Of a stretch of 64,000 nt of DNA, positions 18,022 through 26,269 are shown in pieces. The DNA is from Herbiconiux sp. VKM Ac-1786 (lineage in GTDB: Bacteria > Actinomycetota > Actinomycetes > Actinomycetales > Microbacteriaceae): the NCBI RefSeq assembly GCF_015350805.1, contig NZ_JADKSG010000002.1, positions 372,001 to 436,000 on the forward strand, written 5' to 3'. The notes under the pieces were generated by a model that was not told the origin of the DNA, did not search any database, and saw only the letters and a list, made by a program, of their open reading frames with translations. The first letter of the stretch is position 1, and each line of letters starts with the position of its first letter. The position numbers and the translations under genes were made by a program.

Positions 18022-19118
18022 AGCGGCCTCCGGGCATCACCCCGCCCCCTCCACCGCCGCCGTCGGCCGCCGAACCGCCGGCGGAGCGGCCGAAGCGGGC
18101 GCCGCGCGCGCCGCGGGCCACCCCGGCGGTGCGCCCCGCAGCGCCGTCGCGCTCCGCGGGCCCGTCGCGGGATCAGGACGCCACCCAGCCGATCGAGCCT
18201 CTCGACCGGGGCCGCCCGGTCGACCCCTCGCGGCCGGTCGATCTCACCGGAGCCCTCGGGCGCACCCGCAGTGTGACGCTGCCGGCGGAGAGCACCGCAC
18301 CCCGGAAGCCCGACAGCCCGCCGGCCGCCGGGCGGAAGCGCACGGCCGGGCCCGACGCGAAGCGGGAGCTGCGCAAGGCCACGGCCGCCCGGCGTCGCTT
18401 CGAGCGCTCGGAGGCCCGCCGCTTCACGCAGCGCTCCCGGCGCCGGCGGATCACCTGGATGATCGTGGGCGGCACCCTCGCCGGTCTCGTGCTCGTGGTG
18501 CTGCTGACGGCCTACTCGCCGCTGCTCGCCGTGCGCCAGCTCGCCGTCGAGGGCACCACCCGGCTCGACCCCGCCACTGTGAGCTCGGCCCTCGACGACC
18601 AGCTCGGCAAGCCGCTCGCCCTGGTCGACTACGGCGCGATCGAGCGCGACCTCGCGGGCTTCCCCTACATCGAGTCGTACTCGGTGGAGGCCCGCCCGCC
18701 GGACACCCTCGCCGTGCGCATCGTCGAGCGCCGGCCCGTCGCCCTGCTGCAGACCGCCACCGGTTTCGACCTGATCGACGCGGCCGGCGTCGTCGTGCAG
18801 CAGTCGGGGGAGCGGATCCCCGGCTTCCCCGTGCTCGACCTCACCGGCACCGAGATCGGAAGTCCCGGGTTCCAGGCGGCCGCCGCCGTGCTGATGTCGC
18901 TGCCCGACACCCTGCTCGCGCAGGTCGACCGGATCAGCGGCACCACACCCGACAGCGTGACGATGGTCTTCGCGGGAGCCGGGCAGCGGGTCGTCTGGGG
19001 AGACGCGGACGAGAGCGAGCTGAAGGCCCAGATCCTGCAGAAGCTGATCGCGACCCAGGACCCGTCGCTGCCGGTGGAGTACGACGTGTCGAGCCCGCAG
19101 AGCCCGGTCATCCGCTGA
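18018..19118 (+). CDS. ftsQ: cell division protein FtsQ/DivIB
   Basis: 366 residues. A long basic, proline-rich cytoplasmic N-terminus (about 145 residues), one membrane helix ([20 protein letters not shown]), the POTRA domain ([24 protein letters not shown]...) and the FtsQ beta domain ([26 protein letters not shown]). Organises the FtsL/FtsB part of the divisome at the outer side of the membrane. Starts with GTG inside the murC stop. Followed by 159 bases that probably hold an ftsZ promoter. Confidence 0.95.
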
Positions 19119-19210
19119 GACGCGGCCGCGTCAGCCGGATCCGCACGATCCGATCGCGACACGCGGTGGGATTCGCGGCCGTGGGGAGCATCCTCCCGTA
19201 GCGTCGTCGT

Positions 19211-19260
19211 AGGAAATACATACTCGGAATAACTTTAACTTTCAAGTCGAACTTTAAGGT
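19211..19260 (+). promoter_or_regulatory. AT-rich island upstream of ftsZ with AACTTTAA repeats
   Basis: In a region otherwise above 65% GC this stretch is strongly AT-rich. It contains AACTTTAA at 19231-19238 and again at 19250-19257 (19-bp period) and a possible -10 at TACATACT (about 19217-19224). It lies 20-65 bases upstream of ftsZ, in the only sizeable gap between ftsI and sepF, so it is the likely site of a dedicated ftsZ promoter or operator. No certain -35 is visible. Confidence 0.5.
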
Positions 19261-19277
19261 TCCAGCGGAGGCCGGAC

Positions 19278-20501
19278 GTGACTTCAAACCAGAACTACCT
19301 CGCCGTGATCAAGGTCGTCGGTATCGGCGGAGGCGGCGTCAACGCCGTGAACCGCATGATCGAGCTCGGTCTCCGCGGAGTCGAGTTCATCGCCATCAAC
19401 ACGGATGCGCAGGCGCTCCTGATGAGCGACGCCGACGTCAAGCTCGACGTCGGCCGCGAGATCACCCGTGGCCTCGGTGCCGGTGCCGACCCGGAGGTCG
19501 GCCGCCGTGCGGCGGAGGACCACGCGGAGGAGATCGAGGAAGCCCTCGCGGGCGCCGACATGGTCTTCGTAACCGCCGGCGAGGGCGGCGGCACGGGAAC
19601 CGGCGGCGCGCCCGTCGTGGCCCGCATCGCCAAGTCGATCGGCGCGCTGACCATCGGTGTCGTCACGAAGCCCTTCGGCTTCGAGGGCAAGCGCCGCGCG
19701 GCCCAGGCCGAGGACGGAGTCGCCACGCTGAAGAACGAGGTCGACACCCTCATCGTCGTGCCGAACGACCGCCTGCTGGAGATCAGCGACCGCGGCATCA
19801 GCATGCTCGAGGCCTTCTCGACCGCCGACCAGGTGCTGCTCGCCGGTGTGCAGGGCATCACCGACCTGATCACCACCCCCGGCCTCATCAACCTCGACTT
19901 CGCCGACGTCAAGTCGGTCATGCAGGGCGCGGGCTCCGCACTCATGGGCATCGGCTCGTCGAGGGGAGCCGACCGCGCCATCAAGGCCGCCGAGCTCGCC
20001 GTGGCGTCGCCGCTGCTCGAGGCGTCGATCGACGGCGCGCACGGCGTGCTGCTGTCGATCCAGGGCGGGTCGAACCTCGGAATCTTCGAGATCAACGACG
20101 CCGCGAAGCTCGTGCAGGACGCGGTGCACCCCGAGGCGAACATCATCTTCGGTGCGGTCATCGACGACACCCTCGGCGACGAGGTGCGCGTCACCGTCAT
20201 CGCCGCCGGCTTCGACGGCGGGGAGCCGAACGCCAACACCCCGGCGGTCGAGTCGCGCCGCGGCAGCTTCGTCGGCAACGCCGAGGAGGTCGACCCGTTC
20301 GGCCGAGGCGGCGGCGCGGCCGCGACCCTGCGCCGCGACCAGCGCGCCGAGCCCGCCGAGGAGGCGCCCGCCGCCGCCCCCGCTCCGGCGCAGCACTGGT
20401 CGACCCCGTCGGCCGACCTCGGCCTCACCGGTGCCGTGGCGCTCGACCCGGCCTCCGAGGACGACGACGCCGACCTGGACGTCCCGGATTTCCTCAAGTG
20501 A
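19278..20501 (+). CDS. ftsZ: cell division GTPase FtsZ
   Basis: 407 residues from GTG with AGCGGAGG upstream. Tubulin-like GTPase forming the Z ring. GTP-binding start [15 protein letters not shown], tubulin signature [17 protein letters not shown]7 loop with [11 protein letters not shown]. The C-terminal linker is Ala/Pro-rich and ends in the short conserved tail [13 protein letters not shown] that binds SepF in Actinobacteria. Its stop is the first of a series of GTGA overlaps (see the repeat at 20490-20554). Confidence 0.99.
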
Positions 20502-20554
20502 CCGGCTTCCTCAAGTGACCGGGTTCCTCAAGTGACCGACGTCCTCCAGTAGTG
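20490..20554 (+). repeat. 17-bp tandem repeat forming overlapping six-codon micro-cistrons between ftsZ and yggS
   Basis: Three copies of TTCCTCAAGTGACCGGN (20490-20506, 20507-20523, 20524-20540) and a degenerate fourth (20541-20559). The first encodes the end of FtsZ (FLK stop). Each copy holds GTGA, so the ftsZ stop overlaps a GTG opening VTGFLK-stop; that stop overlaps a GTG for a second VTGFLK-stop; that overlaps a GTG for VTDVLQ-stop; and that TAG (20550-20552) shares its G with the GTG of yggS. Every step shifts frame by one, as 17 = 18 - 1. The layout allows a terminating ribosome to restart four times in a row. Confidence 0.85.
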
Positions 20555-21238
20555 ACCGAGCCCACTCCCGCGGAGCGGGTCGAGCGCGTCGAATCCGAGA
20601 TCTCGGAGGCGGCGCGCTCCGCCGGTCGTACCCGCGACGAGCTGACCCTCATCGCGGTCACGAAGTTCCACCCCGCCTCGCTCGTGCGCGAGCTGCACGC
20701 CGCCGGGCTCCGCGACTTCGGCGAGAACCGCCACCAGGAAGCGCGCGAGAAGGCCGTGGAGCTCGCCGACCTCGGACTCGCCTGGCACTTCGTCGGCCAG
20801 CTGCAGACCAAGAAGGCGCGCCAGGCCCGCGAGTACGCCACCGTGCTGCACTCGCTCGACCGCGAGGCGCTCGTCGACGCCCTGGCCGTGCCCGCCGAGG
20901 GCGGCGGGCCACTGGACGCGTTCCTCCAGGTCAATCTCACCGACGACCCCGAGCGCGGGGGAGTGCGGCCCGACGAGGCGGAGGCCCTCGCCGAGCGGGT
21001 GGCCCGGGCATCCGGTCTTCGCCTTCTCGGCGTGATGGCGGTCGCCCCCCTCGACGAGGAGCCGCGCGCCGCCTTCGCCCGGCTCCGGGCCGTCGGCGAC
21101 CGGGTGCGCACGGTCGTGCCCGAGGCGCGCTGGATGTCGGCCGGCATGTCGAACGACTTCGCCGAGGCGATCGCCGAGGGCGCGACACACCTGCGGATCG
21201 GGACGGCAATCACCGGAAATCGCCCGCCCCGCGATTAA
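20552..21238 (+). CDS. yggS: YggS family pyridoxal-phosphate homeostasis protein
   Basis: 228 residues. Alanine racemase-like TIM barrel that binds PLP without known catalysis and keeps PLP and amino-acid pools balanced. [32 protein letters not shown] holds the PLP lysine and FGENR motif; [27 protein letters not shown] and [30 protein letters not shown] are typical. GTG start in the fourth unit of a 17-bp repeat after ftsZ. In most Actinobacteria pgeF (yfiH) stands between ftsZ and this gene; it is missing. Confidence 0.95.
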
Positions 21239-21279
21239 TCTCGGGGGTAGGAAGAACACGCACCCAACCGGAGGTTCCG

Positions 21280-21789
21280 ATGGCCAACCCGCTCCGCAAG
21301 ACCATGGTCTACCTGGGACTCGCCGACGAGGAGCTCGACTACGAGACTCCCGCCGCCGAGCCGCAGCGACAGGCGCCCGTCGCGCCCGTGCCGCATCCTC
21401 AGGCAGCTCCCAGCCAGGCCCCCGCGCCCCAGGCCACCCGTGCGCCGGTGACCCCCCTCCGCAAGACCTCGCACACCACTCAGACGAAGAATGTGGCTCC
21501 TGCTGAAATGAACGAAATCCTCACCGTGCACCCCAAGCAGTACAAGGATGCCCAGGTCATCGCCGAGAACTTCCGCGAGGGCATCCCGGTCATCATGAAC
21601 CTCTCGCAGATGACGGATGCCGATGCGCGCCGTCTGATCGACTTCGCCGGCGGCCTCTCGCAGGGCCTCTACGGCAAGATCGAGCGCGTCACCAGCAAGG
21701 TCTTCCTGCTCTCCCCGTCGCACGTCTCGGTCTCCGGAGACGCCGGTGGCGAGGCCCGTGCGGAGTCGTCCTTCTTCGTCCAGTCATAA
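21280..21789 (+). CDS. sepF: cell division protein SepF
   Basis: 169 residues, strong GGAGG site. N-terminal membrane-binding segment ([18 protein letters not shown]), a Pro/Ala/Gln-rich linker, and the C-terminal SepF domain ([34 protein letters not shown]... [20 protein letters not shown]... VFLLSP). In Actinobacteria without FtsA, SepF is the main membrane anchor of FtsZ and binds its C-terminal tail. Standard length. Confidence 0.97.
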
Positions 21790-21796
21790 TTGCTGA

Positions 21797-22102
21797 GTGG
21801 GTTCACTCGTAGCGATCATCGCGACCGTCGTCTATTTCGCGCTGCTGCTGTACTTCTTCCTGATGTGGGGTCGGTTCATCCTCGACCTCGTCCGGACGGT
21901 CCGCCGTGACTGGCGGCCGACCGGCGCGCTCCTGGTGGTGGCGGAGGTGGCCTACACGGTCACCGACCCGCCCATCCGGTTCTTCCGGCGCATCATCCCG
22001 CCGCTGCGCGTGGGCCCCGTTGCCCTCGACTTCGGCTGGAGCATCGTGATGCTCATCGTGATCATCGGCCTCTCGGTCGCGGGCTTCCTGCGCGCATCCT
22101 GA
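21797..22102 (+). CDS. YggT family membrane protein
   Basis: 101 residues from GTG, seven bases after the sepF stop. Two hydrophobic blocks (VAIIATVVYFALLLYFFLMWGRFILDLV and LDFGWSIVMLIVIIGLSVAGFL) flank the YggT motif VTDPPIRFFRRIIPPLRVGPVALDFG. Function not settled; in Actinobacteria and plastids the family is tied to cell or nucleoid division, and position between sepF and divIVA is conserved. Confidence 0.93.
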   Translation: MGSLVAIIATVVYFALLLYFFLMWGRFILDLVRTVRRDWRPTGALLVVAEVAYTVTDPPIRFFRRIIPPLRVGPVALDFGWSIVMLIVIIGLSVAGFLRAS

Positions 22103-25669: not shown

Positions 25670-26269
25670 ATGACTCGATGGGCTCCGGATGCGGCACTGC
25701 GACTCGAGGCGGCCGCGCTCGACCTCGTGGAGGAGCAGGGGTACGCGGCGACCACGGTGCCGCAGATCACCGCGCGGGCCGGGCTCACCACCCGCACCTT
25801 CTTCCGGCACTTCGCCGACAAACGGGACGTGTTCTTCCTGCGCGACCGCGAGTTCCCGCGGGTGATCGCGGCGGCGCTGGAGGGGGCGCCCGCGGGGGCC
25901 GACGCGGTCGAGGGGGTGCCCGCGGGGGCCGACGCGGTCGACGTGGTGCGGCAGGGGATCGCCCGTGCGGTGTCGCCGCTGGAGGGCTGGCGGGAGCCGA
26001 TCCTGCGGCGCCGGGCGATCATCCGGGCCGAGGACCAGCTGCGGGAGCGCGAGCTGCTGAAGTCGGCGCACCTGGCCGACGCGATCGCGGGCGGGCTCGT
26101 CGAGCGCTCGGTGGCCCCGGAGCGGGCCCGGCTGGTGGCCTCGGTCGCCGTGCTCGTGTTCGAGCGGGCGCTCGACGCGTGGCTCGACTCGCCGCCGACC
26201 CGGCCCCTCGCGGCGTTCCTCGACGAGGGCTGGCGGGAACTCGACGAGGTGCTGCGTCATAAAGCGTAG
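25670..26269 (+). CDS. TetR family transcriptional regulator
   Basis: 199 residues. N-terminal helix-turn-helix (LEAAALDLVEEQGYAATTVPQITARAGLTTRTFFRHFADKRDVFF) and a variable ligand-binding domain. Between them lies a perfect 10-residue duplication, EGAPAGADAV/EGVPAGADAV, from a 30-bp tandem repeat. Divergent from the MDR oxidoreductase with an operator between the two genes, so it most likely represses both; the inducer is unknown. Confidence 0.92.
   Translation: MTRWAPDAALRLEAAALDLVEEQGYAATTVPQITARAGLTTRTFFRHFADKRDVFFLRDREFPRVIAAALEGAPAGADAVEGVPAGADAVDVVRQGIARAVSPLEGWREPILRRRAIIRAEDQLRERELLKSAHLADAIAGGLVERSVAPERARLVASVAVLVFERALDAWLDSPPTRPLAAFLDEGWRELDEVLRHKA
25880..25939 (+). repeat. 30-bp in-frame tandem duplication in the tetR gene
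   Basis: Two adjacent 30-bp units (25880-25909 and 25910-25939) differ at one base (C/T), adding ten residues to the loop after the DNA-binding domain of the regulator. The near identity suggests a recent slippage event. Confidence 0.9.

Follow-up and report, generated by a model that had tools for sequence, protein, structure and literature searches.

Is the chain of overlapping micro-ORFs that occupies the junction between ftsZ and yggS in the genome of Herbiconiux sp. VKM Ac-1786 a dedicated device for the control of yggS, or an accident of the way in which the junction was copied? The window examined here is a stretch of 64,000 nucleotides from that genome (labelled G000), and the features on which the question turns are collected in Table 1. 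The names of the two flanking genes hold, the family models TIGR00065 (ftsZ) and TIGR00044 (YggS) both scoring over their cut-offs; the names of the other genes in the cluster, from mraZ to rluD, are labels that we assume from gene order, and the gene labelled sepF has no NCBIfam family match at E 0.001.

Table 1. The ftsZ-yggS junction of the window: flanking genes, copies of the repeat unit, and predicted micro-ORFs (positions counted from the first letter of the window).
Feature	Position	Strand	Sequence or family match	Remarks
ftsZ	19278..20501	+	TIGR00065, E 8.7e-122	Upstream gene; protein ends ...D-F-L-K; stop TGA 20499-20501
Unit copy 1	20487..20503	+	GATTTCCTCAAGTGACC	ftsZ's own tail, its stop, and two bases
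Micro-ORF 1	20498..20518	+		VTGFLK; GTG 20498 overlaps the ftsZ stop as GTGA; TGA 20516-20518
Unit copy 2	20504..20520	+	GGCTTCCTCAAGTGACC	
Micro-ORF 2	20515..20535	+		VTGFLK; GTG 20515, GTGA overlap; TGA 20533-20535
Unit copy 3	20521..20537	+	GGGTTCCTCAAGTGACC	
Micro-ORF 3	20532..20552	+		VTDVLQ; GTG 20532; TAG 20550-20552 overlaps the yggS GTG by 1 nt (TAGTG)
Unit copy 4	20538..20557	+	GACGTCCTCCAGTAGTGACC	Two substitutions; also 3 extra bases, which are common to sister species G003
yggS	20552..21238	+	TIGR00044 YggS	Counterpart of GTG 20552 in single-copy G012 overlaps ftsZ directly (GTGACCGAGCC)

The gap between the ftsZ stop (20499-20501) and the yggS GTG (20552) is filled by head-to-tail copies of one 17-bp unit, which create three six-codon frames. 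Tandem Repeats Finder reports a period of 17, 3.6 copies, 88% matches, and a score of 94 at 20490-20550, and there are four copies when ftsZ's own tail is included. A preliminary description of this DNA had correctly recognized the 17-bp unit, the frames VTGFLK, VTGFLK, and VTDVLQ, and the derivation of the unit from the sequence coding for the FtsZ tail; it had, however, counted three copies rather than four, and had missed that the last spacing is 20 rather than 17, because copy 4 carries three extra bases, and that the last overlap is TAGTG. Stops and starts along the chain overlap as GTGA, GTGA, and GTGA (4 nt each) and finally as TAGTG (1 nt), giving a 4- or 1-nt overlap at every step, and a second in-frame stop, TGA, lies directly behind the TAG that closes micro-ORF 3. 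A ribosome passing from ftsZ to yggS by way of the chain would reinitiate four times, three times on micro-frames; the three reinitiations first proposed thus match the micro-frames but fall one short of yggS itself. The antisense strand of the array has a two-frame strict micro-ORF chain of its own. Self-similarity at this ftsZ stop (score 31.5) exceeds that in all 616 random windows of like design (highest bin 18); the array is not due to chance and is unlikely to be an assembly error.

Comparison within the genus, where a search of 16 genomes found yggS in all, points to the origin of the array. The sister species G003, whose YggS is 95% identical, has two unit copies, the second with the identical three-base insertion, and G004, G008, G012, and G015 each have one unit copy and a direct GTGA overlap of ftsZ and yggS; copy number therefore differs between close relatives (4 in G000, 2 in G003, and 1 in the other four, one genome representing each species), in answer to the check that the preliminary description had proposed. 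A tree of FtsZ plus YggS, from which L010 (G007) was left out because its junction window is identical to another's, makes G000 and G003 sisters (99/96) and places G004 and G008 next to them with lower branch support (82-85). The shorter version with shared insertion in G003, together with the single-copy relatives, shows that the array is a tandem duplication of the gene junction and supports its beginning at an ancestral GTGA overlap, as the preliminary description had supposed. Specifically, i) a 17-bp segment across the GTGA overlap of the ftsZ stop and yggS start would have been tandemly duplicated in the ancestor of G000 and G003, most likely by replication slippage; ii) the array would later have grown to four copies in the G000 lineage; and iii) neither protein would have been altered, since translation of FtsZ still ends at the first stop and that of YggS begins at the last start. 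The homologous last unit differs between G000 and G003 at 2 of 20 sites (counted by eye), and fourfold sites differ at 24 of 145 in yggS and 45 of 251 in ftsZ, so that the last unit, admittedly a tiny sample, gives no sign of special conservation. Another member of the genus, G013, has a 17-bp array of its own but falls in a different part of the tree (branch 82/88), and a separate duplication is therefore the simplest, though unproven, reading.

How might yggS be translated? An SD-like 4-mer is absent ahead of yggS in G000 and from all 32 direct-overlap junctions, compared with its presence in 16% of 890 random places. A separate yggS promoter was considered, and no sigma-70-like promoter was found in 19100-21900 by a scan that covers actinobacterial promoters poorly. 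A structured RNA regulator at the junction was rejected: the junction RNA folds less well than its shuffles (z-score +1.03, with 170 of 200 shuffles folding at least as well), and Rfam has no match up to E 0.1 in 20300-20800. Extension of the FtsZ tail by a -1 frameshift, which would add a second FLK tail, was likewise set aside, CTC AAG TGA being on inspection no obvious slippery site. With no SD-like 4-mer, no sigma-70-like promoter, and no unusual fold, the single-copy relatives therefore probably reach yggS by termination-reinitiation. In E. coli, according to PMC10666635, termination-reinitiation needed no more than the final 15 nt of the upstream gene in two pairs, and setting stop and start 38 nt apart cost three native pairs 80-100% of their reinitiation. 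Because 38 nt abolishes most reinitiation in E. coli, yggS would be expected to lose its coupling over a gap of 50 nt if ribosomes did not step from one micro-frame to another, and an equal-length spacer without the relay would uncouple yggS from ftsZ. Unit copies 2 and 3 retain the last 12 nt of ftsZ, stop included, and so resemble the E. coli pairs of PMC10666635, with 12 of the 15 nt that close an upstream gene; the last step has a context unlike the others, because copy 4 departs from the ftsZ tail. The same paper cites other reports of long-range reinitiation or scanning over 73 nt or more, for which reason the relay may be unnecessary.

It is plausible from this arrangement that the relay keeps yggS partly coupled to ftsZ over the 50-nt gap. 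The likeliest effect would be that some ribosomes step through the micro-frames and that yggS is partly coupled at a lowered yield; if each of four steps has efficiency e, the yield falls to e^3 times that of a single copy (12.5% for e = 0.5), and a graded lowering of YggS yield by the relay is possible. The relay would probably be tolerated rather than selected. The whole account, i.e. an ancestral 17-bp junction duplication, growth to four copies, and a by-product relay that keeps yggS partly coupled and is tolerated, is the one that we favor, and we consider it probable.

The strongest competing explanation, appreciably less probable though far from negligible, is that the micro-frames are unused: yggS would be reached by independent initiation, either SD-less or on a transcript that is its own or leaderless, or else through long-range scanning, and the array would be an inert spacer. 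Spaced ftsZ-yggS junctions are indeed common, and just 3 of 58 have a strict relay (in 20-kb stretches, the window's own relay not being in the count); the start lies more than 30 nt past the first stop base in 19 of the 177 junctions with a candidate start (G000 included), only 7 of these 19 having an SD-like 4-mer; and one internal unit in G013 is without GTGA, as expected of an inert spacer. Against unused frames speak the lack here of both an SD-like 4-mer and a sigma-70-like promoter (within the reach of a scan poorly suited to actinobacterial promoters), and the loss of most coupling at 38 nt by native E. coli pairs in PMC10666635.

A relay of this kind could arise simply from the length of the duplicated unit. 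When tandem duplications of 8-30 bp were introduced in silico at natural overlap junctions, lengths of 2 mod 3 produced a relay in 99% of 3712 cases, lengths of 0 mod 3 an N-extended YggS, and lengths of 1 mod 3 a frame with either a premature stop (56%) or one lying beyond the start (44%). The relay is thus an almost automatic by-product: because 17 = 2 mod 3, a frame opened in one copy terminates at the stop of the copy after it. Strict relays reaching the following gene were also counted in 80 stretches of 20 kb plus the window (1154 junctions, 688 of them spaced) and compared with dinucleotide shuffles; gene starts in these counts were taken from homology rather than annotation, which blurs them. 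One-, two-, and three-step relays numbered 43, 8, and 1 in the 688 spaced junctions (39.6, 2.0, and 0.11 expected), and 20, 3, and 1 in the 350 spaced junctions of a second set of 40 stretches (19.6, 1.6, and 0.07 expected). One-step relays elsewhere in the cluster are therefore at chance frequency. Multi-step relays are above the shuffle expectation (13 vs 3.8, or 10 vs 3.8 with related rows merged, Poisson 0.006), and two three-step relays occur in the 1038 spaced junctions (688 + 350), the one at ftsZ-yggS being alone in having only GTG starts and in being built of repeats. The simulation, the antisense chain, and the chance-level one-step relays together make the relay explicable without selection, and it need not be more than a by-product. 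For the same three reasons, the arithmetic of the preliminary description stands (a spacing of 17 = 18 - 1 does preserve the overlaps), but not the suggestion that this spacing points to a device. We conclude that the chain of micro-ORFs is more probably a harmless accident of the copying than a device dedicated to control.

Duplications of this kind are found at other stops. Of 398 genomes, 388 have yggS by family search, and among those fetched the ftsZ-yggS junction was read at 195 loci (178 distinct); the nearest in-frame yggS start overlaps the ftsZ stop by 4 nt in 32 of the 178. Tail duplications across the ftsZ stop occur in five of the 178 junctions and apparently represent four events: 17 bp in G000 and G003, 17 bp in G013 (four copies), 16 bp in G137, and 15 bp in G103 (with a TAG stop), the last three being, as far as the sequences tell, apparently independent of the first. 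A stringent pattern of the doubled tail matches 2 of 398 genomes, G000 and G103. Strict chains of at least two micro-frames that begin at the ftsZ stop, including those that end short of yggS, are present in 3 of 178 junctions (three frames in G000, three in G137, and two in L126), and relaxed hops add G013 with two frames; the chain in G137 ends 8 nt short of the yggS ATG, and the G013 array has lost GTGA in one internal unit. Stop-spanning duplications also occur at other genes of the cluster (murG 19 bp, ftsI 21, ftsL 21, yggT 18, and murG 20). Duplication scores of at least 11 were reached at 4 of 178 ftsZ stops and 0 of 106 yggS stops; we do not claim the ftsZ stop as a duplication hotspot, since murG, ftsL, ftsI, ftsQ, yggT, and sepF stops have duplications too.

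Several individual junctions deserve description in their own right. At murG-murC in L242 (G401), a 20-bp stop-spanning duplication gives the relay GTG (7 codons) TGA - GTG (8 codons) TGA - GTG of the following gene, as at ftsZ-yggS but in another gene pair and genus; in L216 (G313), a 19-bp unit in about four copies crosses the murG TAA stop without a start overlap; and in L281 (G045) and L217 (G118), a 15-bp tandem array lies just past or across a stop labelled sepF; the record of G045 is apparently the one behind L032 as well. Two-step relays are also seen without obvious repeat at the junction labelled ftsL-ftsI in L266, L271, and L273 (G011, G005, and G001, of the same genus), where GTG (5 codons) TGA - ATG (9 codons) TGA - next-gene GTG keeps its positions in three species with many bases differing, and at the junction labelled murD-ftsW in L275 and L291, where the positions are shared (10 and 7 codons) and one relay opens with GTG and the other with TTG. 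Elsewhere in the window, a 30-bp tandem duplication (25880-25949) lies within reading frame 25670-26269, which by the look of its protein we take to encode a TetR-type regulator.

A lean of duplication lengths toward 2 mod 3 at stops that overlap a start codon was noticed post hoc (3/4 vs about 1/9 by eye), whereupon a criterion was written down (a stop-spanning self-duplication scoring at least 10.5 and starting 6 nt or more ahead of the stop) and tried on 40 further stretches. The first 81 stretches yielded 23 rows, three of which were merged with relatives (ftsZ L261, ftsI L227, and ftsQ L217); of the duplications at overlap stops 5 of 8 had a length of 2 mod 3, vs 2 of 12 at others; the 40 new stretches gave 1/1 vs 1/7 (one-sided p 0.25), too few to test. 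Both sets combined, with two related murD rows merged, give 6/9 vs 3/18 (two-sided p 0.026), overlap stops becoming 6/10 when G137, a counter-example from outside the set, is added (two-sided p 0.035), and strong rows only give 2/3 vs 1/9 (one-sided p 0.13); several near-threshold rows among these look like chance, and an overlapping start codon is not necessarily a used one. Lengths divisible by 3 are in excess at non-overlap stops (7/12 and 5/6, counted by hand), perhaps reflecting codon periodicity. The multi-step excess and the lean to 2 mod 3 would together suggest selection for keeping the relay. We stress that the excess of relay-keeping lengths at overlap stops is weak and mostly post hoc, the most interesting lead that we have but a hypothesis and not a result, and that selection for the micro-frames is not supported beyond it. 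As a general rule, duplications across coupled overlaps might alter neither protein, those of 2 mod 3 might survive preferentially as micro-ORFs that relay ribosomes, and slippage might thereby provide a stepwise evolvable dial of downstream yield; we think it rather doubtful that so broad a rule holds.

A further reading, built on the graded lowering that the preliminary description had put forward as a possibility, makes the array a selected attenuator, in which the number of units tunes YggS relative to FtsZ stepwise and is adjustable by slippage. Sister species do differ in copy number (4 and 2), yield after four steps would fall to e^3 (an eighth at the efficiency assumed above), and lengths at overlap stops do lean to 2 mod 3; but a relay arises without selection in the simulation, other duplications at the ftsZ-yggS junction have periods of 16 and 15, an internal unit has decayed in G013, and the differences in copy number are between species only, with one genome for each, all of which makes selective tuning improbable. 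An assembly or sequencing artefact, to which short tandem repeats in general are open, is scarcely credible here, since the copies are not identical (their first three bases vary, and the last one diverges), the array, at 71 bp, is below common read lengths, the window belongs to a four-contig assembly, and the separate two-contig assembly of G003 has the homologous two-copy form.

Among known relatives of the relay, MIRUs are longer than the 17-bp unit and also occur in tandem between senX3 and regX3. As the review PMC12548453 describes, MIRUs insert at start codons with an internal ORF coupled at -4 nt to the gene, and the review also covers the delivery of ribosomes by short ORFs. Like the MIRU of Supply et al. 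1997 (as cited in PMC12548453), the ftsZ-yggS array is a junction repeat, the MIRU having a 4-nt-coupled internal ORF and its insertion hardly disturbing expression; by comparison with this -4 nt coupling, the internal steps of our chain overlap by 4 nt and the step onto yggS by 1 nt. MIRUs, however, are dispersed and, according to that review, appear to be mobile, whereas the 17-bp unit was copied locally from the ftsZ tail. No second locus of the doubled unit was found in G000, where patterns matched the ftsZ-yggS junction only and the 131-bp junction as query gave one match (40 of 51 first-look candidates scored); a mobile MIRU-like element was therefore rejected, the unit being neither dispersed nor present in a second copy in G000.

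Each step of the relay also shares the overlap geometry shown to couple genes by termination-reinitiation at ATGA/GTGA pairs (PMC6728339 and PMC10666635), but unlike known overlapping pairs the relay consists of several successive predicted steps on six-codon frames. RTGA-coupled small ORFs, over-represented in mycobacteria according to PMC4633059, resemble it in that a short frame ends in a TGA overlapping the RTG with which the following gene starts; these start from leaderless 5' ends, whereas the relay frames follow ftsZ within an operon and owe their chain to a repeat. A synthetic-biology "nonsense" upstream ORF (PMC13255528) is similar in that a short frame placed upstream increases translation of the gene behind it, but is engineered, with a strong internal ribosome-binding site. 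The preliminary description held that no such relay had been described; MIRUs and RTGA small ORFs qualify this as relatives, but a micro-ORF chain built by tandem repeat of a gene junction was not found in a search of the literature (titles and abstract openings, mostly open-access). We regard the ftsZ-yggS array as a putatively coupled junction that a local tandem repeat has lengthened.

If the relay is used, it offers a natural series of near-identical reinitiation sites in which the efficiency of one step and the decay over successive steps could be measured directly; it would bear on the dispute whether ribosomes depend on overlaps after termination or can scan over long distances; and it would show how small duplications can be absorbed by tightly coupled operons. 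If the relay is unused, tandem duplication easily yields convincing-looking chains of micro-ORFs, and caution would be called for in the annotation of small ORFs.
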